Shown piece after piece: positions 26,280 to 45,500 of a stretch of DNA of 64,000 nt. The DNA comes from Prevotella sp. Lineage in GTDB: Bacteria > Bacteroidota > Bacteroidia > Bacteroidales > Bacteroidaceae. Where the stretch lies: NCBI GenBank assembly GCA_017554145.1, contig JAFZIZ010000005.1, positions 124,001-188,000 on the forward strand, in the 5' to 3' direction. The notes under the pieces are model-generated. The model worked only from the letters and a program-made list of their open reading frames with translations, was not told the DNA's origin and did not search any database. The translations under genes and the position numbers were made by a program. The stretch's first letter is position 1. Each line of letters begins with the position of its first letter.

Positions 26280-27437
26280 ATGGGATTTACGAATTTTATC
26301 ATCGAAAATTTCAATGAGTTCCTGACATACACAGGCTTTGCCAATGCCACAGCAGGAAACCTCATTATGATAGCGGTTGGTGCGCTCTTCATCTGGCTTG
26401 CCATCAAGAAAGACTTTGAGCCACTGCTACTTGTCCCCATAGGCTTAGGTATCATTCTGGGAAACATTCCCTTCCGTGCCGATGCCGGTCTGGAAATAGG
26501 TCTTTATGAAGACAATTCAGTACTAAACATCTTCTATCAGGGTGTTCGTCAAGGATGGTATCCTCCTCTGATTTTCTTAGGAATCGGAGCCATGACAGAC
26601 TTCTCGGCTCTGCTTGCTAATCCGAAGTTGATGCTGATTGGTGCAGCAGCCCAGTTCGGTATCTTCGGTGCCTATATGTTTGCACTTGCCCTTGGTTTTG
26701 AACCTAATCAGGCAGCAGGTATTGCCATCATCGGAGGTGCCGATGGTCCTACTGCTATCTTCCTGAGCAGTAAGCTCTCTCCCAACCTAATGGGAGCGAT
26801 TGCCGTCTGTGCCTATTCATATATGGCACTGGTACCATTGATTCAACCACCATTGATGCGCCTGTTGACCACCAAGAAAGAACGCGTCATCAAGATGAAA
26901 CCTGCCCGTGAGGTATCACAGACAGAACGTATCTTGTTCCCGATTATCGGACTGTTGCTGACAACCTTCATCGTTCCTTCTGGTCTGCCTTTGCTGGGTA
27001 TGTTGTTCTTTGGTAATCTGTTGAAGGAGTCAGGTAAGACAACCCGTCTTGCCAAGACTGCTGGTGCTGCCCTGAATGATATCGTGGTTATGCTGCTTGG
27101 ATTGACAGTAGGCTGTTCCACACAGGCATCAGAGTTCCTGACGATTAACACAATCTATATCTTTGCTATCGGTGCAGGTGCCTTCATCATTGCCACCATG
27201 AGTGGAGTATGTTTCGTGAAGGTGATGAACCTCTTCCTGCCGAAAGACAAGAAACTCAATCCGCTGATTGGTAACGCCGGTGTAAGTGCCGTTCCTATGG
27301 CAGCCCGTATCTCCAACAACCTCGGTTTGGAATACGATCGCCATAACTTCCTGCTGATGCATGCGATGGGACCGAATGTGGCTGGTGTCATCGGCTCTGC
27401 AGTAGCAGCTGGTGCTCTGCTCGGCTTCCTATCATAA
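26280..27437 (+). CDS. Na+-transporting decarboxylase beta subunit
   Basis: 385 residues from the ATG at 26280; a TTG at 26271 is in frame but less likely. It is a multi-pass membrane protein of the OadB/MmdB family with G-G-A-D-G-P-T-A-I-F and G-N-A-G-V-S-A-V-P-M-A-A-R near the C-terminus. Using Na+ transport, it decarboxylates carboxybiotin and pumps Na+ outwards. With MutAB nearby, the complex is more likely methylmalonyl-CoA decarboxylase than oxaloacetate decarboxylase, but the alpha subunit that would decide this is not in the window. Confidence 0.93.
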   Translation: MGFTNFIIENFNEFLTYTGFANATAGNLIMIAVGALFIWLAIKKDFEPLLLVPIGLGIILGNIPFRADAGLEIGLYEDNSVLNIFYQGVRQGWYPPLIFLGIGAMTDFSALLANPKLMLIGAAAQFGIFGAYMFALALGFEPNQAAGIAIIGGADGPTAIFLSSKLSPNLMGAIAVCAYSYMALVPLIQPPLMRLLTTKKERVIKMKPAREVSQTERILFPIIGLLLTTFIVPSGLPLLGMLFFGNLLKESGKTTRLAKTAGAALNDIVVMLLGLTVGCSTQASEFLTINTIYIFAIGAGAFIIATMSGVCFVKVMNLFLPKDKKLNPLIGNAGVSAVPMAARISNNLGLEYDRHNFLLMHAMGPNVAGVIGSAVAAGALLGFLS

Positions 27438-27522: not shown

Positions 27523-29925
27523 ATGAAACTGCCTCACATTTTCAGACATAACAGTTCCATTGCTGATAGGCTGACATGGCGTGTCATCCTATCTATGACT
27601 GTTATATTTACTATCATCCTGGCTTTTATCCTCTTTATCATTTGGGCAGTGGCTTTCTATATTCTCTTGGGACTGAACAGTACCGCTATGGAAGTCTCCA
27701 ACGAGAAAATCAACAATGTCTTCGTTACTGTCGAGACAGCCGTTTCTAATAATATTCCAGAAGTTGAGGAGAATATCGGTAACGACCATCGTCTGTATTT
27801 CGCTCAAGAGAATCTGTTAAAACTGAATCCCAATATCGTGGGAGCTGCAGTAGCTTATAATCCTGACTATGAACCAAAGAAAGGAGAACTATTCTCACCT
27901 TATGCTTATCGCGATAGCACAGGCATCCACACTAAACAATTGAACGACCAGTCATACGACTATCTCCATCAGGAATGGTATCTGCAACCTATCGAACAAG
28001 GAAAGGGTGTCTGGTCTGAGCCTTATATTGATAAGGGTGGCGGAGAAATCCCAATGATTACCTATTCATTACCACTCACTAACAGCAAAGGAGAGATATA
28101 CGCCGTCCAGACAGCAGATATCTCATTAGACTGGCTGACAGACCTTACCCAGAAAATGGACAGTGCCTTCAATGAGGATTTCAATCTGTCTTTGGATGAA
28201 GACCTTGTCAACAATGCCTATAGTTTCATTGTTTCTCGTAAAGGTACCTTTGTGGTACATCCTGACAAGGATATGGTACTCAAAGAGAGTCTCTACACCT
28301 TCTTCAAGAAAAACACCAACAAAAATGACAGCATCGTTCACGCTGTACTGAATTCAAAAGAAGATAGTGTATTTTCCTTTTCTGACAAGAACGGCCGTTT
28401 ATACACATTGTTCTATGCACCTATCGAACATACTGGATGGACCATGGGAATTATCGTTCCTACAAGGAACATCATGAAGCCTATCCTCTATTTCTTAGGC
28501 GTTCTTATCTTATTGATGGTGGTAGGACTTTTCATCATTGCACTCATCTGTCGGAAAGTCATCCGTAATATTACCAAGCCAATACAACGCTTTGCAGTAT
28601 CAGCCGACGAGATAGCCAAAGGAAACTTTGATGCACCGTTGCCTGTCATCAGAAGCAAGGACGAAATGCGTCGCCTGCATGACTCATTCAAACTTATGCA
28701 GTTCTCACTGGTTGAGCGTATCGAAGAACTGAAGACGGTCAATGAAGAAAAAGGTCGTATTGAGGGAGAACTCACCATTGCCCGTAATATTCAGATGGCA
28801 ATGCTGCCAAAGGTCTATCCTCCCTACCCCGACCGTAATGATATTGATATCTATGGACAGCTGACTCCTGCTAAGGAAGTCGGTGGAGACCTCTATGATT
28901 TCTTTATCCGTGACGAGAAACTGTTTTTCTGTATCGGTGACGTGAGTGGAAAGGGCGTTCCCGCCTCGTTGGTCATGGCGATGACACGTGCCATGTTCCG
29001 TACAATCTCCGCACATGAGAATCGTCCTTCTAAGATATTAAATATCATCAACGATGCCATGTCGGATAACAACGACTCCAGTATGTTTGTTACGTTCTTT
29101 GTCGGAGTACTTGACCTACCCACAGGACGACTCAGATATTGTAATGGCGGACATAACGCTCCTATTACCATCTATCAAGATCGCATCCGTTTCTTTGATG
29201 TGATTCCCAACCTGCCGATTGGCATTGTCAAGTCTTTCGACTTTAAAGAGCAAGAGACCATCATGCCTCAGGGAGCCTCTATCTTCCTCTATACCGACGG
29301 ACTTAACGAAGCAGAGAATAGAGAACATGAGCAACTGGGCGATGATAAGGTTTTGGAGGTTGCCCAACAAATGGCATCACTCTCTGCAGAGGAACAAACC
29401 AATCTAATGACGAAGGCGGTAGAGGAACATATCAACGGTGCAGAACAAAGTGACGACCTGACGATGTTGAGCATCAAGTATCTCCATCAACAAGATGAAG
29501 ATGCCAAAACGCGCCGTCTCACGTTGAAGAACGATGTGGAAGAACTCACGAAACTTCCTGAGTTTGTCGATACCGTCTGCGAAGAGGCTGGTGTTGACAT
29601 GGCATTGATTGCCAGTCTGAACCTCGCTTTGGAAGAAGCTGTTACCAATGTTGTACTCTACGCCTATGAAGGTGGAGAGGGAACCGTGGATATCGATGCT
29701 GTCTACACAAATAAGTATCTGAGATTCATCATCACAGATAGCGGTATCGCCTTCGACCCGACCAAGAAGGAAGAGGCTGATACGACTTTGAGTGCGGAAG
29801 AACGCCCGATTGGCGGCCTGGGCATCCATCTTGTCAGACAAATCATGGATTCTGTCAACTACGAGAGGATCGACGGCAAGAACGTGCTGACACTCATTAA
29901 GAAACTGAAACCAACTAAAAAATAA
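27523..29925 (+). CDS. Sensor SpoIIE-type phosphatase fused to RsbW-like kinase (1)
   Basis: 800 residues from the ATG at 27523. Order: membrane helix (about 21-51), periplasmic dCache-like sensor (about 52-315), membrane helix (about 316-345), HAMP (about 345-400), PP2C/SpoIIE phosphatase (about 416-655, with E-V-G-G-D-L-Y-D-F and G-D-V-S-G-K-G-V-P-A), and a C-terminal GHKL ATPase like RsbW (about 669-800, with E-E-A-V-T-N-V-V, D-S-G-I-A-F-D-P and G-G-L-G-I-H-L). In partner switching these two activities normally remove and add phosphate on a STAS protein. Having both in one chain, with two STAS genes downstream, suggests a bifunctional switch. It is paralogous to the gene at 30875. Confidence 0.93.
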   Translation: MKLPHIFRHNSSIADRLTWRVILSMTVIFTIILAFILFIIWAVAFYILLGLNSTAMEVSNEKINNVFVTVETAVSNNIPEVEENIGNDHRLYFAQENLLKLNPNIVGAAVAYNPDYEPKKGELFSPYAYRDSTGIHTKQLNDQSYDYLHQEWYLQPIEQGKGVWSEPYIDKGGGEIPMITYSLPLTNSKGEIYAVQTADISLDWLTDLTQKMDSAFNEDFNLSLDEDLVNNAYSFIVSRKGTFVVHPDKDMVLKESLYTFFKKNTNKNDSIVHAVLNSKEDSVFSFSDKNGRLYTLFYAPIEHTGWTMGIIVPTRNIMKPILYFLGVLILLMVVGLFIIALICRKVIRNITKPIQRFAVSADEIAKGNFDAPLPVIRSKDEMRRLHDSFKLMQFSLVERIEELKTVNEEKGRIEGELTIARNIQMAMLPKVYPPYPDRNDIDIYGQLTPAKEVGGDLYDFFIRDEKLFFCIGDVSGKGVPASLVMAMTRAMFRTISAHENRPSKILNIINDAMSDNNDSSMFVTFFVGVLDLPTGRLRYCNGGHNAPITIYQDRIRFFDVIPNLPIGIVKSFDFKEQETIMPQGASIFLYTDGLNEAENREHEQLGDDKVLEVAQQMASLSAEEQTNLMTKAVEEHINGAEQSDDLTMLSIKYLHQQDEDAKTRRLTLKNDVEELTKLPEFVDTVCEEAGVDMALIASLNLALEEAVTNVVLYAYEGGEGTVDIDAVYTNKYLRFIITDSGIAFDPTKKEEADTTLSAEERPIGGLGIHLVRQIMDSVNYERIDGKNVLTLIKKLKPTKK

Positions 29926-29934
29926 AACTATCAT

Positions 29935-30870
29935 ATGAAACGCATCTTGACATATTTGTTGTTTCTCTCCTGTACAATAGCCTATGCACAGGACAAACTG
30001 ATTTTCACGCCGCAATGGACGGCACAAGCTCAGTTTGCCGGTTATTATGTGGCACAGGAAAAAGGCTTCTACAAGGAAGCAGGGATTAATGTGGAAATTG
30101 TCCATCCGTCTGTCACCCAGTCTGCCATGGGACGTATCCGCAATAACGAGAGTCACGCAACCACTTTGCAGTTGGTTCAAGCAATGGACATCATTGACAA
30201 TGGCATTCCTCTGGTTAACATTCTGCAAACCTCTATGAATAATGCCTTGGTCATTGTATCGCGCCGCAACAAAAACCCCTTAACGCAGAAAGGGGCAAAG
30301 GTTGGTATTTGGAATGCTGGATTCGGACAACTCGCCATCTGTATGAGCATCAAAGAAGGACTCGAATATGAATGGATACCCTATGCCAGCAACATCAACC
30401 TTTTTGTATCAGGTGCTATCGACGCTACCTTGGCCATGAGTTATAATGAGTACTACCAATTGAAGCAAACAGGAATCAATTTGACGAAAGACAATGTGTA
30501 CCGCTTCTGTGATCATGGTTATAATGTTCAAGAAGACGGTGTATATATGACGCGTGATTACTACAATAAGCACAAAGATCAGGCACGCCGCTTTGCCGCT
30601 GCGAGCAAAAAAGGATGGGAATGGGCTGCCGCTCATCCAGAAGAGACATTGGAAATCGTCATGCAATATGTACAAAAGGAACGTATCGCCACCAACCGCA
30701 TCCTGCAGAAACTGATGCTTGAAGATATTCTTAGACTACAAATAGATCGTGAGTCCAAGAAACGTGAATTCCGTCTGCGCCCAGATATGGTGAAGCAAGC
30801 CAGCAAACTGATGGTAGAACATATGATGTTGGGACGTGAAATAACTTATCAGGAAATTATAGCGAAATAA
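29935..30870 (+). CDS. Periplasmic binding protein, THI5/NMT1-like
   Basis: 311 residues with a cleavable signal peptide (about 1-18, A-Y-A then Q-D). The mature part begins like THI5/SsuA binding proteins (F-T-P-Q-W-T-A-Q-A-Q-F-A-G-Y-Y-V-A) and keeps the two-lobe length. No ABC permease or ATPase gene is present. It sits 9 nt after the first sensor phosphatase and 4 nt before the second, so it may hand its ligand to their sensor domains rather than to a transporter. Ligand unknown; pyrimidine-like or sulfonate ligands are typical of the family. Confidence 0.85.
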   Translation: MKRILTYLLFLSCTIAYAQDKLIFTPQWTAQAQFAGYYVAQEKGFYKEAGINVEIVHPSVTQSAMGRIRNNESHATTLQLVQAMDIIDNGIPLVNILQTSMNNALVIVSRRNKNPLTQKGAKVGIWNAGFGQLAICMSIKEGLEYEWIPYASNINLFVSGAIDATLAMSYNEYYQLKQTGINLTKDNVYRFCDHGYNVQEDGVYMTRDYYNKHKDQARRFAAASKKGWEWAAAHPEETLEIVMQYVQKERIATNRILQKLMLEDILRLQIDRESKKREFRLRPDMVKQASKLMVEHMMLGREITYQEIIAK

Positions 30871-30874
30871 TGAT

Positions 30875-33226
30875 ATGATGAATCTGACAAAACATATCCG
30901 GAACTCACTATCCACCAGGCTCAGCCTATGGATCGTTATATTTGCAGCCCTCATCTTCCTCATTGCTATGGGTTTCTTGTTCTATGAGTCACGTGAAGCG
31001 ATACGCAAGGAAGCCATCAATCATGCTACCCAGATATTGGACAATACTGCAGAGCGCGTAAATACTATTCTCACAAAAGTAGAAGTAGCAACGAACAATA
31101 CCGACTGGCTCGCTGCACGTCATCTGGATGCCCCTGACTCTATGTTTGTCTACACCAAGCGCATCCTGAAGAACAATCCCGACCTGAATGGTTGCTCTAT
31201 TGCTTTTGAACCTTATTTCTTCAAAGACCGTGGGCGTTATTTCTCTGCCTACTCTCTGAACGATCACGGTGAAATCAAGACGATACAGGAAGGTAATGAG
31301 CACTACGAATATTTCTCCTTTGACTGGTATCAATTGCCGAAACTGTTGGATCGCCCTTGTTGGACGGAGCCCTTCAGTGACTACAATCCAGAAGGTATCT
31401 ATTCTGCCGATAGGATTATCTCCTATTGTAAGCCGTTGAAAGACGGTCAGGGAAAGTATGTCGGCACCATCTCCGTCGACCTTTCGTTAGACTGGCTTTC
31501 AAATACTATTTCGGCCGTGAAGCCCTACCCCAATTCCTATAGTATCATGATTGGACAAAGTGGTACATTCTTCGTGCATCCTGACACGACGAAACTATTC
31601 TATCAGACTATCTTTACCGAGACATTGGAAAAGCCTGATACCGCTATGACCAACCTCGGACATGCGATGCAGGCTGGCGAGGAAGGTATGCGTCAGATGG
31701 TGATGGATGGCAAAGACTGTTACGTATTCTACAAACCATTGGGAACTACGGGATGGAGCGTTGCCATCGTTTGTACAGAGAGTGATATCTTCGGAGGTTA
31801 CCACCGATTGGTGAACATCGTTATTGCCATTATCGTCATCGGACTAGGTATCATGCTCTATGTATGCAGTCGTGTGATTACCAAAGAACTGAATCCACTC
31901 CAACAACTGGCACATGAGGCAGAAGCCATTGCTTCAGGACAATTTAACGAAACACTCCCACCGACCAATAGGACTGATGAGATAGGAAAGCTTAGTCAAT
32001 CCTTCAGTAACATGCAGCAGTCACTGAATAATTATATAGAGGAACTGAAAGAGACCACAGCATCAAAGGCGTTGATAGAAGGAGAGTTGCAGATTGCAAG
32101 CAATATCCAGATGTCGATGTTACCTAAGATATTCCCTCCCTACCCTGACCGTAATGATATTGACATCTTCGGACAACTGACTCCTGCCAAGGAAGTCGGT
32201 GGCGACCTCTATGATTTCTATATCCGCGATGAAAAGCTGTTCTTCTGTATCGGTGACGTAAGTGGCAAGGGCGTTCCTGCCTCGTTGGTGATGGCGATGA
32301 CACGTGCGATGTTCCGTACCGTTTCCGCTCATGAGAACCAACCTGCAAAGATTGTCAATGCTATCAATGGAGCCATGTCGGAGAGCAACGACTCCAATAT
32401 GTTTGTCACGTTCTTTGTCGGAGTGCTCGATTTGCCTACAGGACGACTGAGATATTGTAATGCAGGACATAATGCTCCCATTGCCATCACGCATGAGAAT
32501 GCACATTTCCTTGATATCATCCCCAACCTGCCCTTGGGTATTTTGGCTGATTTCCATTTTGAGGAACAGGAGGTACAGATACCTCATGGAGCCTCTATCT
32601 TCCTCTATACAGATGGACTCAACGAGGCAGAGGATATTAATCACGCACAATTGGGTGATGAGAAAATTTTAGAAGTCGCCCAACAAATGACTACCCTTTC
32701 TTCCAGAGAACAGATTAGTCTCATGGCTAAAGTCGTGACAGAGCATGCCAACGGTGCTGAGCAAAGTGATGATTTAACCATATTGAGCATCAGGTATCTC
32801 CATCAGCAAGACGAAGATGCAAAGTCTCGCCGTCTCACTTTGAAAAACAATGTTGAAGAACTCACGAAACTACCTGAGTTCATCGATACTGTCTGCGAAG
32901 AGGCTGGTGTTGACATGGCACTGATTGCCAGTCTAAATCTTGCTGTAGAAGAGGCCGTCACCAATGTCGTACTCTATGCCTATGAAGGTGGAGAGGGAAC
33001 CGTGGATATCGATGCTGTCATCACCGACAAACAACTCAGATTCATCCTCACAGACAGTGGTATTGCCTTCGACCCGACCAAGAAGGAAGAGGCAGATACG
33101 ACTCTGAGTGCGGAAGAACGTCCGATTGGCGGACTGGGCATCCATCTCGTCAGACAGATTATGGACTCTGTCAACTACGAGAGAATTGACGGCAAGAATA
33201 TTCTAACCCTCATCAAGAAACTATAG
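30875..33226 (+). CDS. Sensor SpoIIE-type phosphatase fused to RsbW-like kinase (2)
   Basis: 783 residues (the second Met at 30878 is equally possible). Same layout as the gene at 27523: membrane helix, periplasmic sensor, membrane helix, HAMP, SpoIIE phosphatase, RsbW-like ATPase. The cytoplasmic half is nearly identical to its paralogue, while the sensor half is clearly diverged, so the pair may read different signals into the same output. It starts 4 nt after the binding-protein stop. Confidence 0.93.
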   Translation: MMNLTKHIRNSLSTRLSLWIVIFAALIFLIAMGFLFYESREAIRKEAINHATQILDNTAERVNTILTKVEVATNNTDWLAARHLDAPDSMFVYTKRILKNNPDLNGCSIAFEPYFFKDRGRYFSAYSLNDHGEIKTIQEGNEHYEYFSFDWYQLPKLLDRPCWTEPFSDYNPEGIYSADRIISYCKPLKDGQGKYVGTISVDLSLDWLSNTISAVKPYPNSYSIMIGQSGTFFVHPDTTKLFYQTIFTETLEKPDTAMTNLGHAMQAGEEGMRQMVMDGKDCYVFYKPLGTTGWSVAIVCTESDIFGGYHRLVNIVIAIIVIGLGIMLYVCSRVITKELNPLQQLAHEAEAIASGQFNETLPPTNRTDEIGKLSQSFSNMQQSLNNYIEELKETTASKALIEGELQIASNIQMSMLPKIFPPYPDRNDIDIFGQLTPAKEVGGDLYDFYIRDEKLFFCIGDVSGKGVPASLVMAMTRAMFRTVSAHENQPAKIVNAINGAMSESNDSNMFVTFFVGVLDLPTGRLRYCNAGHNAPIAITHENAHFLDIIPNLPLGILADFHFEEQEVQIPHGASIFLYTDGLNEAEDINHAQLGDEKILEVAQQMTTLSSREQISLMAKVVTEHANGAEQSDDLTILSIRYLHQQDEDAKSRRLTLKNNVEELTKLPEFIDTVCEEAGVDMALIASLNLAVEEAVTNVVLYAYEGGEGTVDIDAVITDKQLRFILTDSGIAFDPTKKEEADTTLSAEERPIGGLGIHLVRQIMDSVNYERIDGKNILTLIKKL

Positions 33227-33240
33227 TTTAGAATAAGAAA

Positions 33241-35031
33241 ATGGATCAGATCTTTTTCATAGGAATCAGCCTGCAGGGATGGATAACCCTCGTTACGGTG
33301 ATGAGCATCTTCATCGTGATGGCGCGTACCCGTATTCCTGCCGTAGTGGCATTCCTTGGTGCCCTGACAGTTCTGTTAGTTACAGGTATCGTCACTGAGG
33401 CAGAAGGTCTGGCAGGATTCGGCAGTGAGCCAGTTGTCGTACATGCTGCCTTCTTCGTCGTCATGGCGGGACTGATGCAGACAGGTGTGCTCTACTGGTT
33501 AACCAAGCATTTGTTAGGCACCCCCAAGAACTACCAACAGGCCATCGTCAAGCTGATGGTACCTATCGCGTCGTTAGCAGCCTTCCTGAATTCCGTCAAT
33601 GTCGTGGCATTGTTCATCGACGTAGTGAAGATATGGGCCCGTAAACTCAGTACACAGCCCTCGCGCCTGCTGATACCCTTGAGCTATGCTGCCACTTTGG
33701 GTGGTACGTGTACGTTGCTGGGTAACTCTTCCAATCTGGTGATTTCCGGCTTGTATGCCGACCAGACGGGAAAAGCATTGAATTTCTTTGACCCATTGAT
33801 TCCCGGTCTGTTCTGTACCATCGTCGGAACCATTCTCGTCATTCTGTTCCGTAATATGATACCACGCAGAGAGTCACCCGAAACCTCCTTCGAATCGACC
33901 AGTGATTATACCGTCGAACTATTGGTACCCACCGAGAACGAAGCCGTAGGACTGACTACTGACGAGGCAGGGCTGCGTAACGTACGAGGCGGATCACTCA
34001 TTGAAATTGTCCGTTTCGATAAGGAAATTATCGCACCCGTTCCCAAAGATGAGTTCATTCTTGGAGGTGACCGCCTCATCTATTCCGGACAGATCAATGA
34101 GATTCTGGAACTGAAGCGCACGCATGGACTGGTGGCTGCCGACCATCATGTCTACAGTATCAGCGAGATAGACAACAACCGCAAGATGCGTACTGCCTAT
34201 GTGGGCTTTGGCAGCGACCTGATTGGTTCACGCATGAGTAGCAATGAGTTTGAGCGTCGCACGGATATCACGCTGGTAGCCGTTGCCCGTCAGGGAAAGC
34301 GTGTTGACGAACAACCTCGTGAAGTAGAGTTGGAGGCCGGTGATACGTTGCTGTTGGAATGTCCGCCTAAGGACGACACAGAGATTGCCCAGATGACGAA
34401 AGGCAGTCTGACCTTCTTCGATTCCCACTTCATTCCGCAGTTGGGCAAGAAGACCATCTATTCCTCTGTCATCCTCATCGTGATGTTCCTCCTATCGATG
34501 TTACATATCCTGCCGCTGATGGCTACTACGATGCTAGCTGCTGGTGCGATGCTAATCCTCAAATGCTGTCGTGCACAGAACGTGACGCGATATATTGAAT
34601 GGGACCTCCTCTTGATACTCGGTGCAACGGTGGTATTCAGTACCGCCATCACCAAGACGGGTATCGCGGCTGTCATTGCTACGGGTGTCTTGGATATCTG
34701 CGGCCATCATCCGCTACTAATTATGGCGGTGTTGTGTATCCTCGCTTCATTGGTCAGTGAATTGGTCAGCGATGTCGGTGCGAGTGGTGTGTTCTTCCCT
34801 ATTGCTTATCAGGCAGCGATAGACCTGGGGTGCAACCCGATGCCGTTTGTCATCTCACTGATGCTTGCCGTAACGACGAGTTTCGCCTCGCCCATCGGTT
34901 CCAGTACCCACATGCTCATCTACGGTCCTGGTGGTTTTAAATTCACTGACTTCATGAAGATCGGTCTATGGATGCACCTCTTCCTGTTGGCCGCCAACCT
35001 GCTGATAGTAAACATTGTTTATCCATTGTAA
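33241..35031 (+). CDS. SLC13-type transporter with two RCK_C domains
   Basis: 596 residues. Membrane segments occupy both ends, and two TrkA-C (RCK_C) domains fill about residues 217-390. Family features include N-S-V-N-V-V-A-L-F and S-S-T-H-M-L-I-Y-G-P-G-G near the C-terminus. SLC13/DASS carriers move dicarboxylates, sulfate or similar anions with Na+. It is a paralogue of the gene at 60352. Its location between the sensors (14 nt upstream) and the STAS genes (24 nt downstream) suggests that its substrate relates to the sensed signal. Confidence 0.88.
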   Translation: MDQIFFIGISLQGWITLVTVMSIFIVMARTRIPAVVAFLGALTVLLVTGIVTEAEGLAGFGSEPVVVHAAFFVVMAGLMQTGVLYWLTKHLLGTPKNYQQAIVKLMVPIASLAAFLNSVNVVALFIDVVKIWARKLSTQPSRLLIPLSYAATLGGTCTLLGNSSNLVISGLYADQTGKALNFFDPLIPGLFCTIVGTILVILFRNMIPRRESPETSFESTSDYTVELLVPTENEAVGLTTDEAGLRNVRGGSLIEIVRFDKEIIAPVPKDEFILGGDRLIYSGQINEILELKRTHGLVAADHHVYSISEIDNNRKMRTAYVGFGSDLIGSRMSSNEFERRTDITLVAVARQGKRVDEQPREVELEAGDTLLLECPPKDDTEIAQMTKGSLTFFDSHFIPQLGKKTIYSSVILIVMFLLSMLHILPLMATTMLAAGAMLILKCCRAQNVTRYIEWDLLLILGATVVFSTAITKTGIAAVIATGVLDICGHHPLLIMAVLCILASLVSELVSDVGASGVFFPIAYQAAIDLGCNPMPFVISLMLAVTTSFASPIGSSTHMLIYGPGGFKFTDFMKIGLWMHLFLLAANLLIVNIVYPL

Positions 35032-35055
35032 TCATATAAACAAAATAACAGGCTT

Positions 35056-35364
35056 ATGAAAACTACATTCCGTGAGGAGAACGGCAAATACATTGCCACA
35101 TTGGAGGGGCGACTGGATACAGTTGCCTCCGAGCAGACCGCAAAAGAGTTGTCAGTACTTGATGACTGTATGGGTCACGACATCGTGATCGATTGTACCA
35201 AACTTGAATATATCAGCAGTTCTGGTTTGCGTATTCTGCTGAACATACGCAAGAATGCCGCTGCCAATCACAGCAAGGTTACTCTCATGAACATCAACGA
35301 CGAAATTAGAAAAGTATTCCAGTTGACTGGATTCATTTCATTATTTGATATTAAAAACCAATAA
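35056..35364 (+). CDS. STAS-domain anti-sigma factor antagonist (1)
   Basis: 102 residues, a single STAS domain. The phosphorylation site Y-I-S-S-S-G-L-R (Ser54-56) is intact, preceded by D-C-T-K-L-E. It is the expected substrate of the kinase and phosphatase domains of the two sensor proteins upstream. An almost twin gene follows 11 nt later. Confidence 0.93.
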   Translation: MKTTFREENGKYIATLEGRLDTVASEQTAKELSVLDDCMGHDIVIDCTKLEYISSSGLRILLNIRKNAAANHSKVTLMNINDEIRKVFQLTGFISLFDIKNQ

Positions 35365-35375
35365 TATTTAGCATT

Positions 35376-35678
35376 ATGACAATTGAAATTAAAGAACAGA
35401 ATGGCGGTCTCATCGCTTTGATGGATGGTCGTCTCGACACTCCTGCTTCCGTACAGGCAGCAAAGGACATGCAACCCTTGATGGACAATGCAGACAAGGA
35501 AATCACTCTCGACTGCACCAAGTTGGAATATATCAGCAGTTCCGGTCTCCGTCTCTTCCTGAGTCTCCGCAAAGAGACTTCCGCTAAGGGTGGTAAAGTT
35601 ATCATTGAGAACATCAATGATGAAATCAAGAAGGTCTTCATGATGACCGGTTTCTACAATCTCTTTGAGATTAAGTAA
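35376..35678 (+). CDS. STAS-domain anti-sigma factor antagonist (2)
   Basis: 100 residues, a single STAS domain with the same D-C-T-K-L-E-Y-I-S-S-S-G-L-R core as its neighbour (Ser54-56) but diverged flanks. Two antagonists beside two bifunctional sensors suggest a paired circuit. It is 3 nt before the (p)ppGpp synthetase-like gene, implying coupled expression. Confidence 0.93.
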   Translation: MTIEIKEQNGGLIALMDGRLDTPASVQAAKDMQPLMDNADKEITLDCTKLEYISSSGLRLFLSLRKETSAKGGKVIIENINDEIKKVFMMTGFYNLFEIK

Positions 35679-35681
35679 ACG

Positions 35682-36776
35682 ATGGAAGACTACGGACTGG
35701 ATATGCACTGCACACTGCTGATAGAAGACTATCGGGAGAAACTTCCCGTATATCGTCTTCTTCAGCAGGTTGTGATGAAGAAGCTTGCCGAATTGGTTAA
35801 GCAGGCCGGTATTGAACTGAACTCCATGGAGTCACGCATCAAGGGCGAGGCTTCGTTGGCTGGTAAACTGGAGCGGAAGGGTTCCAAGTATCAGTCCATC
35901 ATGGATATCACCGATATCTTCGGGGCTCGCATCATTACGTTCTATAACGAAGATGTAGACCGTATAGCTTCGCTGGCCGAGAACCTTTTCGATGTTGACT
36001 GGCCTAACTCCATCGACAAGCGCAAGATGCACCAGTTCGACAGTTTCGGCTATAACTCGTTGCACTACATCTGCCGCCTGCCCAAATCACTATATTACGA
36101 TGAAAAGCATCCTGAGCTCAACGAGATAGCCTTCGAGTTGCAGATGCGTACAGCATTGCAGCATGTATGGTCTGCTATCCAACACGACATCGGCTACAAG
36201 AGCGAGATTGAGACTCCAATGGAGTATCACCGCGACCTCAGTCGTCTGGCTGGTATGTTGGAACTCGCCGACAATGAGTTCAGCCGTATCCGTGCTGACA
36301 TCAGCGACTATCGACGACGCATACAGAGTCTGGTACAGGACGGTAAGTTAGAGGAAGTATCGCTCGACGGTGACACATTCCGTTCCTACATCGACATGCA
36401 ACCCTTCGACAAGTTGAACCGCCAGATAGCTGCCATCACGCAGGCCGAATTGCATCAAACCTCGCCGATGCCCTATCTACCGCTTCTCCGTTCGCTTGGT
36501 ATGAATACGTTAGGTGACGTAGAACGCATGATGGATGAGAACTACGATGACGCTTATCAGTTGGCGCTCTTCCAGTTGGGATCTACCGACATTGACATTC
36601 TCTCCTCCAACATTGGTTTACAGAACCTATGTATCGTCCGTATTTTAAAAGCTGGTGAAGGAATGCTAGGACTACGCAAGATGTTTGACATCATCAATGG
36701 TGCTTCAGAACAGAATGCTATTATGGCGGAGATGGTGATGCAACAGGCAGCGAAACTCTCCTTCATGAACCAATAA
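35682..36776 (+). CDS. RelA/SpoT-type synthetase-domain protein
   Basis: 364 residues. The N-terminal half matches the (p)ppGpp synthetase fold: R-I-K-G-E-A-S (52-58), K-L-E-R-K-G (62-67), D-I-T-D-I-F-G-A-R-I (75-84, with the metal-binding Asp78), G-Y-N-S-L-H (123-128) and F-E-L-Q-M-R-T (151-157, with Glu152), then H-x-W near 161. These are the residues needed for synthesis, so it may be active. There is no HD hydrolase, TGS or ACT domain. The last 150 residues are an unrecognised helical region. It lies in the STAS operon, suggesting that STAS proteins control it or act beside it. Confidence 0.85.
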   Translation: MEDYGLDMHCTLLIEDYREKLPVYRLLQQVVMKKLAELVKQAGIELNSMESRIKGEASLAGKLERKGSKYQSIMDITDIFGARIITFYNEDVDRIASLAENLFDVDWPNSIDKRKMHQFDSFGYNSLHYICRLPKSLYYDEKHPELNEIAFELQMRTALQHVWSAIQHDIGYKSEIETPMEYHRDLSRLAGMLELADNEFSRIRADISDYRRRIQSLVQDGKLEEVSLDGDTFRSYIDMQPFDKLNRQIAAITQAELHQTSPMPYLPLLRSLGMNTLGDVERMMDENYDDAYQLALFQLGSTDIDILSSNIGLQNLCIVRILKAGEGMLGLRKMFDIINGASEQNAIMAEMVMQQAAKLSFMNQ

Positions 36777-36782
36777 TTGCCC

Positions 36783-37388
36783 ATGGAGCAGAAGCCACAA
36801 CATCGCCCCAAAATCGCTATCGTCGATGCTAACACCTTAGCGGTGTTGGGACTTAGGCAGTTATTGCAGAACGTCATGCCCATTATGACAGTAGACACCT
36901 ACGGCTCTTTCGCTGAACTATCGGCGAATCATCCCGACTGTTATTTCCACTACTTTGTCTCCATGAACATTGTACTGCAAAATCGCCAGTTCTTCCAAGA
37001 GCGACAACGCAAGACCATTGTGCTGACACTGCAATTAGAAGATACGGCACAACTACCCGACTTCCATAGCCTTTGCATCAACCAACCTGAATCACAACTC
37101 ATCCGTCAACTATTGGGGCTTGCCCAATACGCACACGGAGAAGGTAAACACCTGCCACCGATGCCACAAGTACTCCAGCAGAAAATACTGACCAATCGCG
37201 AGATAGAGGTCATGTCGCTCATCGTACAGGGGTTTATCAATAAAGAAATTGCCGACCAGCTGAACATCGGACTTGCCACTGTTATCACCCATCGCAAGAA
37301 TATCATGGATAAACTCGGTTTGAAGAGCGTTTCCGCCCTCACCATCTATGCCGTGATGCACGGTTACGTGGACATCAACAAGATATAG
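36783..37388 (+). CDS. LuxR-type regulator with degenerate receiver
   Basis: 201 residues from the ATG at 36783; a TTG at 36777 is in frame but less likely. The N-terminal part resembles a receiver (I-A-I-V-D-A-N-T-L-A), but the expected phospho-acceptor segment reads H-Y-F-V-S-M-N with no Asp, so phosphorylation is unlikely. The C-terminal HTH is typical LuxR/FixJ (L-T-N-R-E-I-E-V, then N-K-E-I-A-D-Q-L and V-I-T-H-R-K-N-I). It starts 6 nt after the synthetase gene and ends the operon, so it is a candidate output of the pathway. Confidence 0.88.
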   Translation: MEQKPQHRPKIAIVDANTLAVLGLRQLLQNVMPIMTVDTYGSFAELSANHPDCYFHYFVSMNIVLQNRQFFQERQRKTIVLTLQLEDTAQLPDFHSLCINQPESQLIRQLLGLAQYAHGEGKHLPPMPQVLQQKILTNREIEVMSLIVQGFINKEIADQLNIGLATVITHRKNIMDKLGLKSVSALTIYAVMHGYVDINKI

Positions 37389-37481: not shown

Positions 37482-38627
37482 ATGAACCTTCAATTGAAAA
37501 CATTACCCTTTGAAAACGCCCGTGCTGAAGTCTCTTGTTTCGACAACGGCACAGAGGTGAAAGAGTATCATGTGATGATTCATGTGGATGACGCCACACT
37601 GACCTTTTCGGAACAATTAGACGCTATCATCAAGACATACAATGCTCTTCTGGACGGAGAACTGAAAGGAGCACGTAGCGTCTTCAAACGCTATTTCCTC
37701 AGCGATGCTGCCAATCAGGCAGACGAGATTATCGTGAACGATGTCACCGACTGCGCCAAGAGCATCATCCAGCAGGCACCGCTCGACGGTACAAAGGTGG
37801 CTCTCTGGGTCTATCTGATGACCAATGTACAGACCCGTCTTGGTAAGAGTGGACTCTATGAGGTGAGCCACGGCGACTTCCGCCACTTGTGGAACGGCAG
37901 TGCCCATAATATGGCTGCCAACTCAGAATATCAGATGCGTTTGCTCTTCAATGAATATAGTATGCAACTGTTGGAAGAGGAATGCACATTGAAGGACAAC
38001 TGCATCCGCACTTGGATTTTCGTGAACGACGTCGATTTGAACTATGGTGGTGTGGTGCGTGCCCGCAACCAGTTCTTCTTCACTCAGGGATTGACCGTCA
38101 ATACCCACTTCATCGCCTCAACGGGCATCGGTGGCAGACAAGCCGACCCCAACGTGCTGTCGCAGATGGACAACTACGCTATCGCAGGTATCCAACAGGA
38201 GCAGATACACTATCTCTATGCACCCACCCACCTCAACCGCACCAGTGACTATGGTGTGAGTTTTGAGCGTGGCACGTATATCGACTATGCCGACCGCCGT
38301 CAGGTGTATATCTCCGGTACAGCCAGCATCAACAACAAGGGTGAGATCATGTATCCGAAAGACATTCGCAAGCAGACCCAACGTATGTGGGAGAATGTCG
38401 AGACACTGTTAGCAGAAGCCGACTGCAGCTACGAGGATGTTGGTTATATGATAGTCTATCTGCGTGACTTGGCAGACTATCAGGTAGTCCGTCAGCTCTT
38501 TGAGGAGCGCTTCCCAGGCTATCCCTACGTCATTGTCCACGCCCCTGTCTGCCGTTCTGGTTGGCTCGTAGAAATGGAATGTATGGCTGTTCGCAAAATA
38601 CAGAATCCCTCTTTAAAGGCATTTTAG
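37482..38627 (+). CDS. Rid-family / chorismatase-like protein
   Basis: 381 residues. The C-terminal part resembles YjgF/Rid domains, ending in C-R-S-G-W-L-V-E-M-E-C with the Arg and Glu that bind carboxylated substrates. The N-terminal 200 residues are similar in layout to FkbO/Hyg5 chorismatases, which fuse such a domain to a Rid-like half. Chorismate cleavage or hydrolysis of an imine or enamine is possible; the substrate cannot be assigned. It has its own promoter and a shared terminator. Confidence 0.7.
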   Translation: MNLQLKTLPFENARAEVSCFDNGTEVKEYHVMIHVDDATLTFSEQLDAIIKTYNALLDGELKGARSVFKRYFLSDAANQADEIIVNDVTDCAKSIIQQAPLDGTKVALWVYLMTNVQTRLGKSGLYEVSHGDFRHLWNGSAHNMAANSEYQMRLLFNEYSMQLLEEECTLKDNCIRTWIFVNDVDLNYGGVVRARNQFFFTQGLTVNTHFIASTGIGGRQADPNVLSQMDNYAIAGIQQEQIHYLYAPTHLNRTSDYGVSFERGTYIDYADRRQVYISGTASINNKGEIMYPKDIRKQTQRMWENVETLLAEADCSYEDVGYMIVYLRDLADYQVVRQLFEERFPGYPYVIVHAPVCRSGWLVEMECMAVRKIQNPSLKAF

Positions 38628-39534: not shown

Positions 39535-42500
39535 TTACTTAACAACTACCTTGCGGCCGTTGAAGATATACAGACCCTTCTTCGTCGGCTTCTGCTGTAG
39601 CTGGATACCGCCGATGGTGTACCACTTACCGTCCTCGTAGGCAGTGCGTGAGAAGTTGATGGTCGTCGGATTGTCAGGACTACCGACAACGGCATTCTTC
39701 TTGAAGGTCATGATCTCACCGGTAATAGCCACCATCTCACCATCACGCTCGATAGCGAAACAGATGGGCTGTTCGGTCTCACCGGCGATGCTCAGGTAGA
39801 AGATGCTCTCCTCGTCGGCAGGAGTGAGGCTCTCACCCATTACCTCTCCGTCGACGTAAGCCACCAGCAGGTCGCCCTCCTCAGGCTCGAAGCCTTCCAC
39901 GATAGCGCTCACGGACATCGTGCTGCGCGACTCTGCGGCGCCACGGTTCGTGCTTTGTGTCTCGTCCTCACTGAAGTTGCTACCCAACTCGTAGTACGGA
40001 TAGGTGAACGACGCCGTGTCGGCCTTGCACAACATCATGTAACCCTCACCAGGTTTCATGTACTGTAAGCTACCGCGCCAGCGTCCAGTATTACCCGACT
40101 TGGTGAAGTAGGCAAACTCGGTGTGACTCTTGATGACGTCACCCTCCTCAGCCTGATCGAAGTAGTCGCTCAGGGCAGTCTCCACGGTCAGGTTCGTCAT
40201 CGGTGTGTAGCCGATGGCGTTCCAGCCCTTCTTCAGTTCGATGGTGCGTGCCTCTTCCTTCTTGATGACGGTGCCACCGATGGGGAATGTGCAATCCTTC
40301 TGCACCTTGATGGCATACGAATTCTTCGGTGAGATGACCACGTTCTTCGTGTTGCCTGATGCCAGCCACTTCTTGTTCTTATAGGTCAGCGTCAGGTTGC
40401 TGCCCAGGTCGGTCAGCATGTCGCCTTCCTTCCATGGCATGTTACTGAGTAGTTTGTTCACGTCACTCAGTTCCTCGCTCTGTACGTTGAACGATACCCA
40501 GTTCCATCCCTTCTTCAGACTGAAGTTCTGTACGAAACTGTCACCGCCGTCGAAGCGTACCGGTTTGTCTGTACCCAGGACAGCCGACTTATCGAACTTG
40601 ATTTTTTGATTTGGTGTCAGCACAATCTCACGTCCTGTGCTATACTGCCACAGGCGGAAGTTTAATTCGCGACCGCTGGTCTGACTGTCGTAGACGGTCA
40701 GGTACAGACCTGTCTCGCCCGTCTGAGCATTGTGACTGATGTTAGCATAGCCATGACATAAGTTCGCGTTGTCGAAGACACCCACGATGTCACGGGAATC
40801 GGTGTCAAGCTCGTCATACAGATAAACCAGACCGGAGATACTCATCGAGTTCTTCAAGAGGTCGCCACTAATAGTATTTGCCCAGTCGGGCTGCTCGCCC
40901 TCTACCGTCAGGTTCAGGTAGAACGGCTCCACGATGCCCTCCTCATCGGTCAGATAGATAATCTCATTATATGTACCGATGTTCAGGTCCTTGCTGACCG
41001 TCGCATTGACATAATCCATCGACTGCGGTGCCACCACATCGGTGTACTTGTTGAGCGTCAGCCAGCGCGGGCAATTCTCAATCGTGTAGGTATGGCTCGA
41101 AGCACCGTTGTTGTAGAACGGCAGTTCACAGCTCTCGCCGCTACCATACTTGATTGTAACGTCCAGTTTGTTCACTAACCACTGCAGGCTGCTGTTGGTC
41201 ACATAGTAGCAGGCCGTCTGCGGCGATGCCATCGTATTACCATTCCTGTCCTCCACGTCACGCAGCGTCACATAGATGTTGCGGTGGTTCAATTTGGCAG
41301 CAGGCTCGTCGAGCTCTACCATGATCTGGTTGTCCCTGCCGATGAACGAGAAGTTCAGGTTCGTCACTTCCTCATACGGCACTACGGGAGCAGCCATAGT
41401 GGCATCGATGTGCGACAGGATTTCGTCAACGGAATTGACGAACACATAGTCGCGTGCAGGAATGTTCGTAGGTTCATGCGTCACGGGATCTTCCTGATAG
41501 CGCATATTGCCGTCGGCGTCTAAGTATATCTTCTTGCTGTAGGCGTATGGCGTCATGACAATCTCGTTCTTATCATTGCGCTCCTGGTGGTCGAAGCCTA
41601 AGTAGGTAATCAGACCCTTCTCATCACCGTTAGGACTCTTCGTCGCATAGGTGTTGATGAGCGTCTGCGGCAGTGCCTGACCGAAGAGAATCAGTTCGTC
41701 GATGTTACCCTTCAGTGGTGTGTTGCCACCTTCTGTTGCACCGATGAACGAGTTGCCGCTCATGCCGCCAAGGCTGTCGACCTCGAAGGTCGTCACCTGT
41801 TCCTTATCCAAATAGATGTTTGCCACGTTACGGGCACGGTTCATCGTCATGGCGAAGTGGTGCCACTGTCCGTCGCTCCAGTCGCCGGCCACCTCGGTCT
41901 CGAAGCCATTCGAGCGGTACAGCAGCTTATCGCCATCGAATCCGATGTTGAACCGGTTCTTGGAATCGCTGTCCTCCTTCAGACCGTTGCCGTTGCTCAG
42001 CAGCGTGCCGCGACCGTCGGCATCCGTCTTGAACCAGAACATCAGTGTGTAGTCCTGCTCGGCGGTGCGGTTCAGGGCATCCTGCGTCAGTTCCAGACCC
42101 TTGTCGGCCTTCTCCAAATGCAGGGACATACCGTGTGGCATAGCCCACGAAGCACCCATCAGCTTGGCGTTGGCACCTTGGGTATGGTCGGTAGCATAGT
42201 CACCCGAGCCTTCATTCATCGGGTAGTAGTCCACGAGGTCCTTCTCGTAGCCTGTCAGTCGGTGCAGGCCATAGGTACTGAAGAGTCCTACATCCAAAGC
42301 GCGATACCACAGACGAGCCTCCATCATGCGGCCCTCGTAGTACTGGCTCTCGTTGCGGTCGACTTCGTTGGTGCGACCGAAGATAAGCGGACCAGTACCC
42401 GTATATAGGGCTTTGAGTTTGTAGCCCTTGCCGATAACCTCACCGTCGCAGTAGAACATCAGTGTGCTGTCCTTCTGATTGATGCTGACAGCCACCTGAC

Positions 42501-45500
42501 GGAAGGCGCCTGGCTTAATGGCCTTCGTTGACGTGAAGGCCTGATCGTTGATAACAGCCTTTAGATACATATCAGAGGTCAGCCACAGCTGCAGCTCCTG
42601 TCCGTTGGTGCCGTGCGAGAACAGCGGCATATCGCGTCCCGTCTCGGCAGGCTTTATTCTCAGGTCGATAGTCAGGTCCTTACCGCTGAAGTTACGCTTA
42701 GCCTCGCTTTCCACGCTGGCCTTGCCTTCAAACTGCAGGCTCACCATTTCGGAGAGTTCGTTGTTATTCACCTCGCCCTTCACCTCGAAGTTGCTGATGG
42801 CAGAGAGGTTATTGTATTCAATGTCCTCCGAGAAGTTGAACACGATGTCGTCGCCCGAGGTTAGTAGGCCGCTCTTCGGTTCGGGTGTACCGAACAGTTG
42901 CGGACGGCGCGTATCTTTGATACCGCTAATGACCTTCGACGGTGAGGTAAGGAACGTGCCACCGTTGCGGCAGAAGAGCACGGCCCTCAGGTCGTAGCTG
43001 CGCTCTATCGTCCAGCCTTCACCGTAGAACTCGGTGATGATGTTGCCGTTCTCAGGAATCATCTCACATACACCATTGGCATTCGCCATCAGCAGTGAGT
43101 CGGTATAGTACGAACAGAGGTTCGTCCAAGCGTCGTCGCCACGCTGCGATTCCTTGTATTGGAACTCGATGTGGTCGAAGTTATGCTGGTGACGGTCGAA
43201 GTCGCTGATGGTAACAGGGATGTACCAGCCGCGCTTCGGGTCTTGCTGGGCATTGGTGTTCAGCACCCACTTGTCGGATGGAACCGAGATATTCACCGCT
43301 CCAGCCTCACGCAGGAAGTGCACGTCGAACGTAGTGGTTGCGATGGCGTGTTCAGCGTCACCAGGCGACATCAGACCGATGGTCAGACCTTCATAGTCGA
43401 AGCCCTTGCCAGCACGCACCTCCATTTCCAACTGGGTTGTCACACCCGGCACGAGGCTCACGGTCATGCCGGCGGTGGTCAGCGTCTGTCCGTTCACACT
43501 GATCTTCGCACCGTTCGGATTCGCCTGGTCGGCAGCAAACAGCTGCATGGCGCTCAAGCCAAGCGTAGCCTCAGGCTTCTCGCTCTCGTTGGCGAGGAAT
43601 ATCGTGAAGCGGGCGGGGTCGTTGATGGATACACCGCTTACGCTATGCTTGTCGAGGCTGATCGTCGGGTTGTCAATCTTCAGCGTACGCTCGTCAAGCA
43701 GTGAGCCGGCATTGTAGAAGTGCGTCTTGCGCTCGTCCTCCCAAGGATTGGAGGTATAACCGCCACGGGTGCGGAACACGAAGCTGCAAGGTTCACCATG
43801 ATCAGGAAGGTTACTCTCCTTCTTCAGATAGTGCAGTGTCGTGTCGTTCAGCTGCTGGAAATTGTAGTTGCTGAACACATCCTCTGGGTCGTACTTGCCT
43901 TTGCCATTGGTGGCATCTGCCATCGGCACACGATAGACGTCCACAGCCAGGCGGCTTGTCGGCGCAGCGGCGATAGTGAATGCTATCGAACGGTTGTACT
44001 CGTTGGCAATGCTGTTGGTGCCGATGGTCGTCGAGGTAAGCACGGGGGTCAGAGACCACCTGAAGTATGTACCGCTAAATTTGAGGGACGATTCTTGATT
44101 CTTCACTCCACCTTTAACCGTCGGGTCGAGTTTCTTCAGGGATTCCAGATAGCCAAAGATGCCACCGCCAACATAGTTGACAACAAGAGCGGCTACCGTA
44201 GTACCGACGCCACTGCCCCTACTGAAGTAGTCGGGCTGTACGCCATAGGGGAAGTACATCGACGTAGCGTTAGAGTAGCTGCTGCTGAACGTCTCGCTAT
44301 AGTTCACGCCTGCAGCGCCGGCAATGTCGAAGCTGTTCACCAGGTCGGTGGCGTTCAGTTTCTCGCGTTCATTCTGCGTGATCATCTTTGACCATGCATA
44401 TATAATCTCGCTCTTTTCAGCGATCTCGTCAGGACAGTCGGCCGGCGTCTTTCCGTCTGGCAGCACGATGACATAATGGGTATATTCGTCGGCCGTCATT
44501 TTTTCCGTATTATATTCCTTGTTCTTATAACCGAACTTCGAGTCGGAAGGCTCGCGCAGCGAGCGATAGATGGCCTTACCCGATGAGTTGGCAGCCCGCT
44601 TGGCTTCTTCCTGCGTACCTAAGAACATCAGGTCCATAATCTGCTTCGCCAATCCGGGGATAATCTCCTCGAGTATCTGCTTCTGCGAGTAGATGAACTG
44701 CTGCTTCAGCTTCGGACCGTAGCCTATCGAGATGTCGCGTACCAGATGATATATCTTACCATCGGCACCCACACCCGCGGCAATATGTGCCATCGTGCCG
44801 TATTTAGCATATTGGGTCACATCACCAGTCGTGTTGAGCTGACCAATACCGCCTGCTGCCATTCGGGCTTTATATACACTGTCGGGAATCACGCAGATAG
44901 ATGATAACGGCTTTATCTGCACGTTCTGCACCATACCGATATAGAGGTCGGCATCGGCACCCACCATGGATGGGTCGCCACTGGTGCTGACAGCGTTAGA
45001 GAGCACCATCGTATGCGACCATGCCTTGCTACCGTTATAGTTGAATACCAGGTCTGTGTATGAGATATCTACCTTCTCTGCAGCATGCTCGACACCGTCG
45101 AATATGCCATCAAATGTGTCGGTCAGGAATTGAGTATCGCCATCTACATAGCCTTGGAACCAGGTGAGCTTGTCGGCCAGCGAGAAGTTGAACATCACAC
45201 CGCCTGACATCGACAGGTTCATGGCGTAGCTGTTGTTGAGCGTAGCACCCTTGGCAAGTGTCGATGAGCTGTAGGCTCCAGGCGGGTCGCGCAGGATGTC
45301 AAACAACAGCGGCTGACCATCGGTCAGCAGATCCTTACCCTTACCGATGGGGTACATGTTGAGTATGTAGCCATGCAGAGGCGCTGCCTCGAAGTGGGTA
45401 CCGTCCTGCTCTACGCTGAAGGTCACCGTCCTAAGCGCGTTCTCAATGCCTACCGGTTGTGCAACCTGGTCGGCTTGCAGCATGAAGGTGCACTGTCCGT

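Follow-up and report, generated by a model that had tools for sequence, protein, structure and literature searches.

Small alarmone synthetases (SAS) are usually discussed as enzymes that are controlled by transcription or by allostery. STAS-controlled synthases of second messengers are known for diguanylate cyclases: in HsbA-HsbD of Pseudomonas aeruginosa and in BgrV-BgrR of Sinorhizobium meliloti the phosphorylation state of the STAS protein controls the synthase, and SiaC-SiaD is likewise partner-switched (PMC8457831, partial text). Here we analysed a 64,000-nt stretch of Prevotella sp. DNA (contig JAFZIZ010000005.1, positions 124,001 to 188,000; the whole stretch is called the window), in which a cluster of eight genes on the plus strand (27523-37388) encodes two sensor proteins, two STAS proteins and an SAS. 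On balance we favour the view that this is a partner-switching cassette with a small (p)ppGpp-type synthetase as output, in which the state of the STAS protein would control the synthetase. The switch itself is known and an alarmone-synthetase output was not described in the literature searched, so the cassette would represent a variant of a known switch with an apparently new output. Among the matches listed, no text combined partner switching with an alarmone synthetase and no title or start of an abstract described such a link (supplements, preprints and most subscription journals lay outside the scope). In a 2011 survey of RelA/SpoT homologues, eight sampled Bacteroidia genomes carried long Rel and RshB, and Prevotella and STAS are both absent from the part of its text that was available (PMC3153485); little is said to be known of (p)ppGpp signalling in Bacteroidetes (PMC6994654, partial text).

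The cluster resembles SiaABCD of P. aeruginosa (SiaA phosphatase, SiaB kinase, SiaC partner, SiaD diguanylate cyclase) in that a sensor phosphatase, a kinase, a small phosphorylatable partner and a nucleotide second-messenger synthase are clustered, and the SiaA model was the best NCBIfam match of both window sensors, with scores of 75.7 and 97.3 bits that are far under its cut-off of 700 bits. However, SiaC is a DUF1987 protein (PMC8457831, partial text) whereas the window cluster has STAS proteins, its output enzyme is of the RelA/SpoT type instead of a diguanylate cyclase, and a single chain joins its phosphatase and kinase. With STAS and RelA_SpoT found by Pfam in place of a DUF1987 SiaC and of SiaD, the cluster is not a member of SiaABCD and the comparison concerns only how such a system may work. 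Similarly, HsbA-HsbD and BgrV-BgrR share with our proposal the STAS-controlled synthase but differ in having a diguanylate cyclase as output. The PP2C phosphatase, STAS antagonist and HATPase kinase domains of RsbU-RsbV-RsbW and SpoIIE-SpoIIAA-SpoIIAB are all present in the one window cluster (Pfam, NCBIfam), but here a synthetase stands at the output place, and reading the genes around STAS brought no sigma factor to notice, although no search aimed at one was made.

In order to follow the locus through relatives, 100 loci (25 from close relatives, 3 from an order-wide sample and 72 from the genus) were collected, corresponding to 91 distinct synthetases; this set excludes the window itself and one genus genome (G210) in which the gene is cut by a contig end. 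The 25 contigs of close relatives belong to Prevotella, Prevotellaceae, Bacteroidales or Bacteroidetes, many of them from ruminants. The order-wide sample of 198 genomes gave 15 synthetase matches, namely the window genome, three genomes (G081, G185 and G101) at 53-54% identity and 11 distant ones. Among 200 genus genomes a synthetase match was obtained in 74, of which 68 were counted as members of the SAS family (SAS+, as opposed to 132 SAS- genomes), while six weak matches of another type were left out of the SAS+ group and of the examination of distant loci. Neighbouring genes were labelled by profiles built from the window proteins, and all neighbour counts are lower bounds, since the stretches are not equally long and some are cut off by the end of a contig.

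A STAS gene was found directly upstream of the synthetase gene in 64 of the 91 distinct loci, while the other neighbours vary, and in G210 the two genes also lie side by side by coordinates. Three of these loci (L047, L152 and L157) were counted as paired by hand after a relaxed re-search, an overlapping frame having masked the STAS gene. The gap between the two genes, measured in 61 of the 64 pairs, ranges from -14 to +166 nt and in 60 cases lies between -14 and +45 nt; 14 gaps are negative, at least some of them because the script takes the first start codon. The pair occurs in two synthetase clades with different flanks, and L050 and L052 show it in a second family of the order as well. When the STAS label is mapped on a quickly built tree of 92 synthetases, 11 changes are required, of which starred branches force at least 9; shuffled labels require 23.4 on average. 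With 11 changes on the tree, the pairing is not a single block passed on unchanged. TIGR00377 matches were present in 149 of the 200 genus genomes, and SAS+ genomes have between 1 and 15 STAS matches each. With such numbers chance adjacency in 64 of 91 loci is, by informal judgement, not credible, although the genomes are related. No STAS-synthetase fusion protein was found among the profile matches, a weak test in which the model covered the 364 SAS positions only.

It might be argued that the true partner of STAS1 and STAS2 is encoded elsewhere and escaped detection, an extracytoplasmic function sigma factor or another regulator being examples, and that the synthetase is just co-regulated in the operon. 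The abundance of STAS proteins in the genus, beside varied genes, would suit such a scheme, as would the STAS proteins with unknown targets or outputs in several described systems (PMC8256260, partial text). However, it leaves the tight and repeated STAS-SAS adjacency amid changing neighbours unexplained, and no sigma factor caught attention near the STAS genes, where no search aimed at one was made; we consider it quite unlikely.

At the level of whole genomes, strong STAS matches (E ≤ 1e-15) were found in 68 of 68 SAS+ but in 52 of 132 SAS- genomes (Fisher 1.3e-20), where this and the following Fisher values overstate independence because the genomes are kin. Matches of at least 145 bits to a profile of SAS-adjacent STAS proteins occurred in 47 of the 49 SAS+ genomes with a linked pair, and 15 of the 19 SAS+ genomes that lack a linked pair hold such a STAS elsewhere; the Fisher value for this comparison set is 7.3e-9, kinship being ignored.

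The first-pass annotation, a model's reading of the letters alone, had seen two STAS antagonists with an intact serine, and indeed STAS1 and STAS2 both carry the motif YISSSGLR, with a putative phosphorylatable serine before GL. Their scores were 64.0 and 66.6 bits for TIGR00377 (cut-off 53.45) and 55.8 and 58 bits for PF01740 (cut-off 22.6). In 65 SAS-adjacent STAS proteins, the window included, Ser55 is invariant and Ser56 is retained in 58. The protein next to the synthetase is STAS2 in the window, but it is STAS1-like in L044 (73% identity to STAS1, 51% to STAS2) and L108 (68% and 52%), and therefore both window STAS proteins could address the same enzyme. In a further 17 adjacent STAS proteins, the likeness to STAS1 exceeds that to STAS2 by a small margin of 1 to 8 points.

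The synthetase matched RelA_SpoT with 58.7 bits (cut-off 27; E = 8.5e-16), as its earlier naming as a RelA/SpoT-type enzyme would predict, and has no HD domain and no other Pfam family. Its catalytic region is intact: 20 of 21 checked positions (R52, K54, K62, D78, Y124, E152 and 14 others), to which catalytic roles are assigned, are the same in all 92 sequences, and H117 is found in 87 of the 92. A profile of the family matches eight solved GTP pyrophosphokinase sequences including YjbM and YwaC, mostly over residues 38-212, and among curated models that of the YjbM synthetase scored best, with 60.9 bits, far under its cut-off of 320 bits. In this domain (about 38-212) the window enzyme thus resembles RelP/RelQ (YwaC, YjbM), but it differs from them by some 150 extra C-terminal residues, which matched no Pfam family, and by its linkage to STAS and to a small alarmone hydrolase (SAH). 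The C-terminal part could be a docking site for the partner.

This hydrolase, a small HD_4 protein of one subfamily (E ≤ 1e-30), was detected in 27 of the 200 genus genomes, two of these being fragments in SAS+ genomes, and is concentrated in 25 of 68 SAS+ as opposed to 2 of 132 SAS- genomes (Fisher 1.2e-11, kinship ignored). It lies near 21 of the 91 synthetase genes, in 10 of the 64 paired and 11 of the 27 unpaired loci. Its members match alarmone hydrolases of solved structure, MESH1 among them, and in some relatives this MESH1-like HD_4 hydrolase adjoins the synthetase; however, the subfamily was not found in the window genome, where the best HD match (1.6e-15) is in the range of long Rel proteins. 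Among distant SAS loci outside the genus, STAS or SAH was nearby in 0 of 20 examined, of 27 found (12 of 16 from the phylum search and 8 of 11 from the order search).

The hydrolase brings up an explanation in which the synthetase is a toxSAS-like enzyme, with (p)ppApp or pyrophosphorylated tRNA as its product, and is held in check by SAH and/or STAS in the manner of antitoxins, the whole serving defence or growth arrest. Known toxSAS enzymes pair with neutralising partners (PMC11782079, partial text), SAH adjoins the synthetase also in some loci without STAS (L048, L051, L128), and the window synthetase matches the PADLOC candidate model PDC-S33 with 49.9 bits over residues 24-164. Nevertheless, no SAH of this subfamily was found in the window genome, Cache sensors and a transporter fit signalling, and the curated and structural matches described above point to GTP pyrophosphokinases. 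STAS is not known as an antitoxin fold. A toxin system therefore seems very improbable to us.

Returning to the partner-switching cassette, its layout in the window agrees with the first-pass annotation. The eight tightly spaced genes are present, with successive gaps of 9, 4, 14, 24, 11, 3 and 0 nt, and Pfam and NCBIfam, applied with curated cut-offs, support their names, including the two sensors with phosphatase and kinase in one chain, the periplasmic binding protein and the LuxR-type regulator (GerE). Only the transporter with RCK_C domains had to be corrected, for the CitMHS transporter carries a single TrkA_C stretch above the Pfam cut-off. The window genome amounts to 2.8 Mb, is 83.5% complete and 5.1% contaminated.

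Table 1. Genes of the window cluster and its left flank (positions in the window).
Feature	Position	Strand	Length (residues)	Remarks and basis
OadB-like decarboxylase beta subunit (presumed name)	26283..27437	+		Left flank of the cassette; neighbourhood in relatives
Sensor 1	27523..29925	+	800	Cache/PDC - HAMP - PP2C (SpoIIE) phosphatase - RsbW-type HATPase kinase (HATPase_c_2); Pfam
NMT1/THI5-like periplasmic binding protein (orphan)	29935..30870	+	311	Optional member; Pfam
Sensor 2	30875..33226	+	783	Architecture as sensor 1; Pfam
CitMHS/TrkA_C transporter	33241..35031	+	596	Optional member; Pfam
STAS1	35056..35364	+		Anti-anti-sigma-like STAS protein; TIGR00377 above cut-off
STAS2	35376..35678	+		Anti-anti-sigma-like STAS protein directly upstream of synthetase; TIGR00377 above cut-off
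Small alarmone synthetase (SAS)	35682..36776	+	364	RelA_SpoT at about 51-175; Pfam
LuxR/NarL-type regulator	36777..37388	+		Most likely resident flank outside the module; GerE, Pfam

By region, numbered on sensor 1, identity between the two sensors rises from 28% over the sensor part (1-345) to 76% over PP2C (400-655) and 94% over the kinase (656-800), and dCache_1 exceeded the Pfam cut-off in sensor 2 only. As the sensor parts diverge and the phosphatase and kinase regions are alike, the sensors represent two inputs with a nearly identical output half. In relatives, the six genes upstream include an RsbW-type kinase domain in 53 of the 64 STAS-SAS loci and PP2C in 30: 30 pairs have PP2C and kinase, 23 the kinase without PP2C and 11 neither. 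NMT1 occurs near 12 of the 64 paired loci, each time together with a PP2C-bearing sensor, and near none of the 27 unpaired ones, and CitMHS near 12 of 64 paired versus 1 of 27 unpaired loci. These low counts, together with those for LuxR given below, indicate that the STAS-SAS pair is the repeated element and that front end and LuxR are optional; what is conserved as a unit comprises the kinase, accompanied or not by the phosphatase, together with STAS and synthetase. Thus, the co-conservation of all eight genes, which the first-pass annotation had named as its check, held for STAS, kinase and synthetase (STAS directly upstream in 64 of 91 loci; strong STAS matches in 68 of 68 SAS+ genomes) and mostly failed for LuxR, binding protein and transporter being optional. 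The first-pass proposal that dephosphorylated STAS proteins may act on the synthetase or on the LuxR-type regulator, coupling an external ligand to the stringent response, is supported in part.

Many relatives (for example L025:5952-9684) encode a 963-residue ABC-2 exporter and, as judged by eye, a lipoprotein-like open reading frame of 265 residues between kinase and STAS, in the place of the window's transporter and STAS1. Other sets of sensor-PP2C-kinase and STAS were seen by eye in L162, L170, L174 and L177 near open reading frames resembling nonribosomal peptide synthetase condensation-type or phosphopantetheinyl-transferase proteins, and STAS-kinase sets in L159, which belongs to the window's own genome, and L164 lie beside an open reading frame of about 300-310 residues that, by eye, looks histidine kinase-like in L164.

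Several findings weigh against a direct switching of the synthetase by STAS. No STAS is adjacent in 27 of the 91 loci, one of which (L133) shows only 413 nt upstream, and 11 of the 64 pairs, some of them on short stretches, have no kinase nearby. STAS proteins of at least 145 bits are also held by 17 of 132 SAS- genomes, which weakens the SAS-type STAS as a specific marker, and in 7 of the 15 unlinked genomes mentioned above the high-scoring STAS sits before LuxR. STAS switches in the genus also adjoin other genes, so that one STAS could serve more than one partner. Of the 65 adjacent STAS proteins, 5 have alanine and 2 have glutamine in place of Ser56 (L050, L052, L137, L141, L144, L151 and L152); these variants are not decisive, because the identity of the phosphorylated serine is presumed and may differ between model proteins. 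That no SAH of the subfamily was found in the window genome counts on the same side. Finally, 11 genomes have a STAS gene immediately before LuxR, at a distance of at most 198 nt and without an intervening synthetase gene.

This last arrangement would be expected if STAS switched the LuxR/NarL-type pseudo-receiver regulator, the synthetase being a passenger or a second, independent output of the operon. A unit oadB-kinase-STAS-LuxR, a shorter form at the same site, is found in L214-L217, L220 and L221, and the receiver-like N-terminus of LuxR, when aligned and inspected by eye, seems to be without the usual phosphoacceptor aspartate, so that LuxR may be controlled by protein contact. However, in 41 of the 64 STAS-SAS loci, a few of which are cut by contig ends, LuxR is missing from the first two genes downstream (it is present in 23, versus 1 of 27 unpaired loci), and 9 of the 11 STAS-LuxR genomes are SAS+ and carry the synthetase elsewhere, G280 and G396 even in a linked STAS-SAS pair. 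Moreover, the LuxR N-terminal family is present in 161 of the 200 genus genomes with or without synthetase, and oadB-LuxR without an insert, which looks like the empty site, is common: among 150 LuxR genes listed, oadB lies less than 400 nt upstream in 34, of which 24 are in SAS- genomes, while for 93 the contig carries no oadB on the strand of LuxR. From this spread it follows that the adjacency of LuxR reflects the insertion site, and LuxR was demoted from core member of the module; most likely it is a long-standing companion of oadB and does not belong to the module. We regard a switch directed at LuxR instead of the synthetase as unlikely; given the 11 pairs, a STAS-LuxR link may nevertheless exist, and one STAS serving both outputs would also fit.

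The name OadB-like for the product of the left-flank gene is presumed, with no family call. Between oadB and LuxR the window holds 9342 nt, and among the LuxR genes listed 13 genomes, all SAS+, have 4.1-9.3 kb there; the synthetase is directly before LuxR in 10 of them, while G204, G280 and G252 have STAS and no synthetase in that place. Inserts of kinase and STAS at this site range from about 0.75 to 9.3 kb. The plain reading is insertion of cassettes into the interval from oadB to LuxR, the alternative being loss. An oadB-LuxR gap of 478 nt was seen in G262, and gaps occur in G251 and G318 as well.

Beyond LuxR, the window encodes a Rid/FkbO-type chorismatase-like protein (37482-38627; Pfam, NCBIfam) whose distance varies among relatives. 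A gene for a hemerythrin-LuxR fusion faces the LuxR gene at L029:11714-12733 and similar places, and genes with a related helix-turn-helix occur there in many relatives. On the minus strand (39535-51129) lies an open reading frame of 3864 residues with a signal-peptide-like start and repeated stretches, as judged by eye.

For the cassette with the synthetase as output, the following sequence of events is proposed. The phosphorylation of STAS1 and STAS2 would be set by two membrane sensors, which differ in their periplasmic Cache domains and each carry a PP2C phosphatase and an RsbW-type kinase; the orphan NMT1 binding protein probably serves one of these sensors. Unphosphorylated STAS would bind the synthetase and alter its activity, where activation is a guess by analogy with SiaC-SiaD, and the kinase, by phosphorylating or capturing STAS, would cause the release of the synthetase. 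An outside ligand would in this way set the alarmone level without ribosome or amino-acid starvation. The contact between STAS and synthetase, its sign, the product and the ligand are predictions made from sequence. Whether all parts of the wider proposal hold, that a phospho-STAS switch directly gates the alarmone synthetase, that extracytoplasmic signals read by Cache domains (with binding protein or transporter as optional members) set a (p)ppGpp-type level independently of the ribosome in Prevotella, that the hydrolase acts as off-enzyme in many relatives and that the cassette moves between chromosomal sites, seems to us an evenly balanced question. If true, partner switching would be extended from cyclic di-GMP to alarmones, and abundant gut and rumen bacteria would gain a ligand-driven route to growth control.

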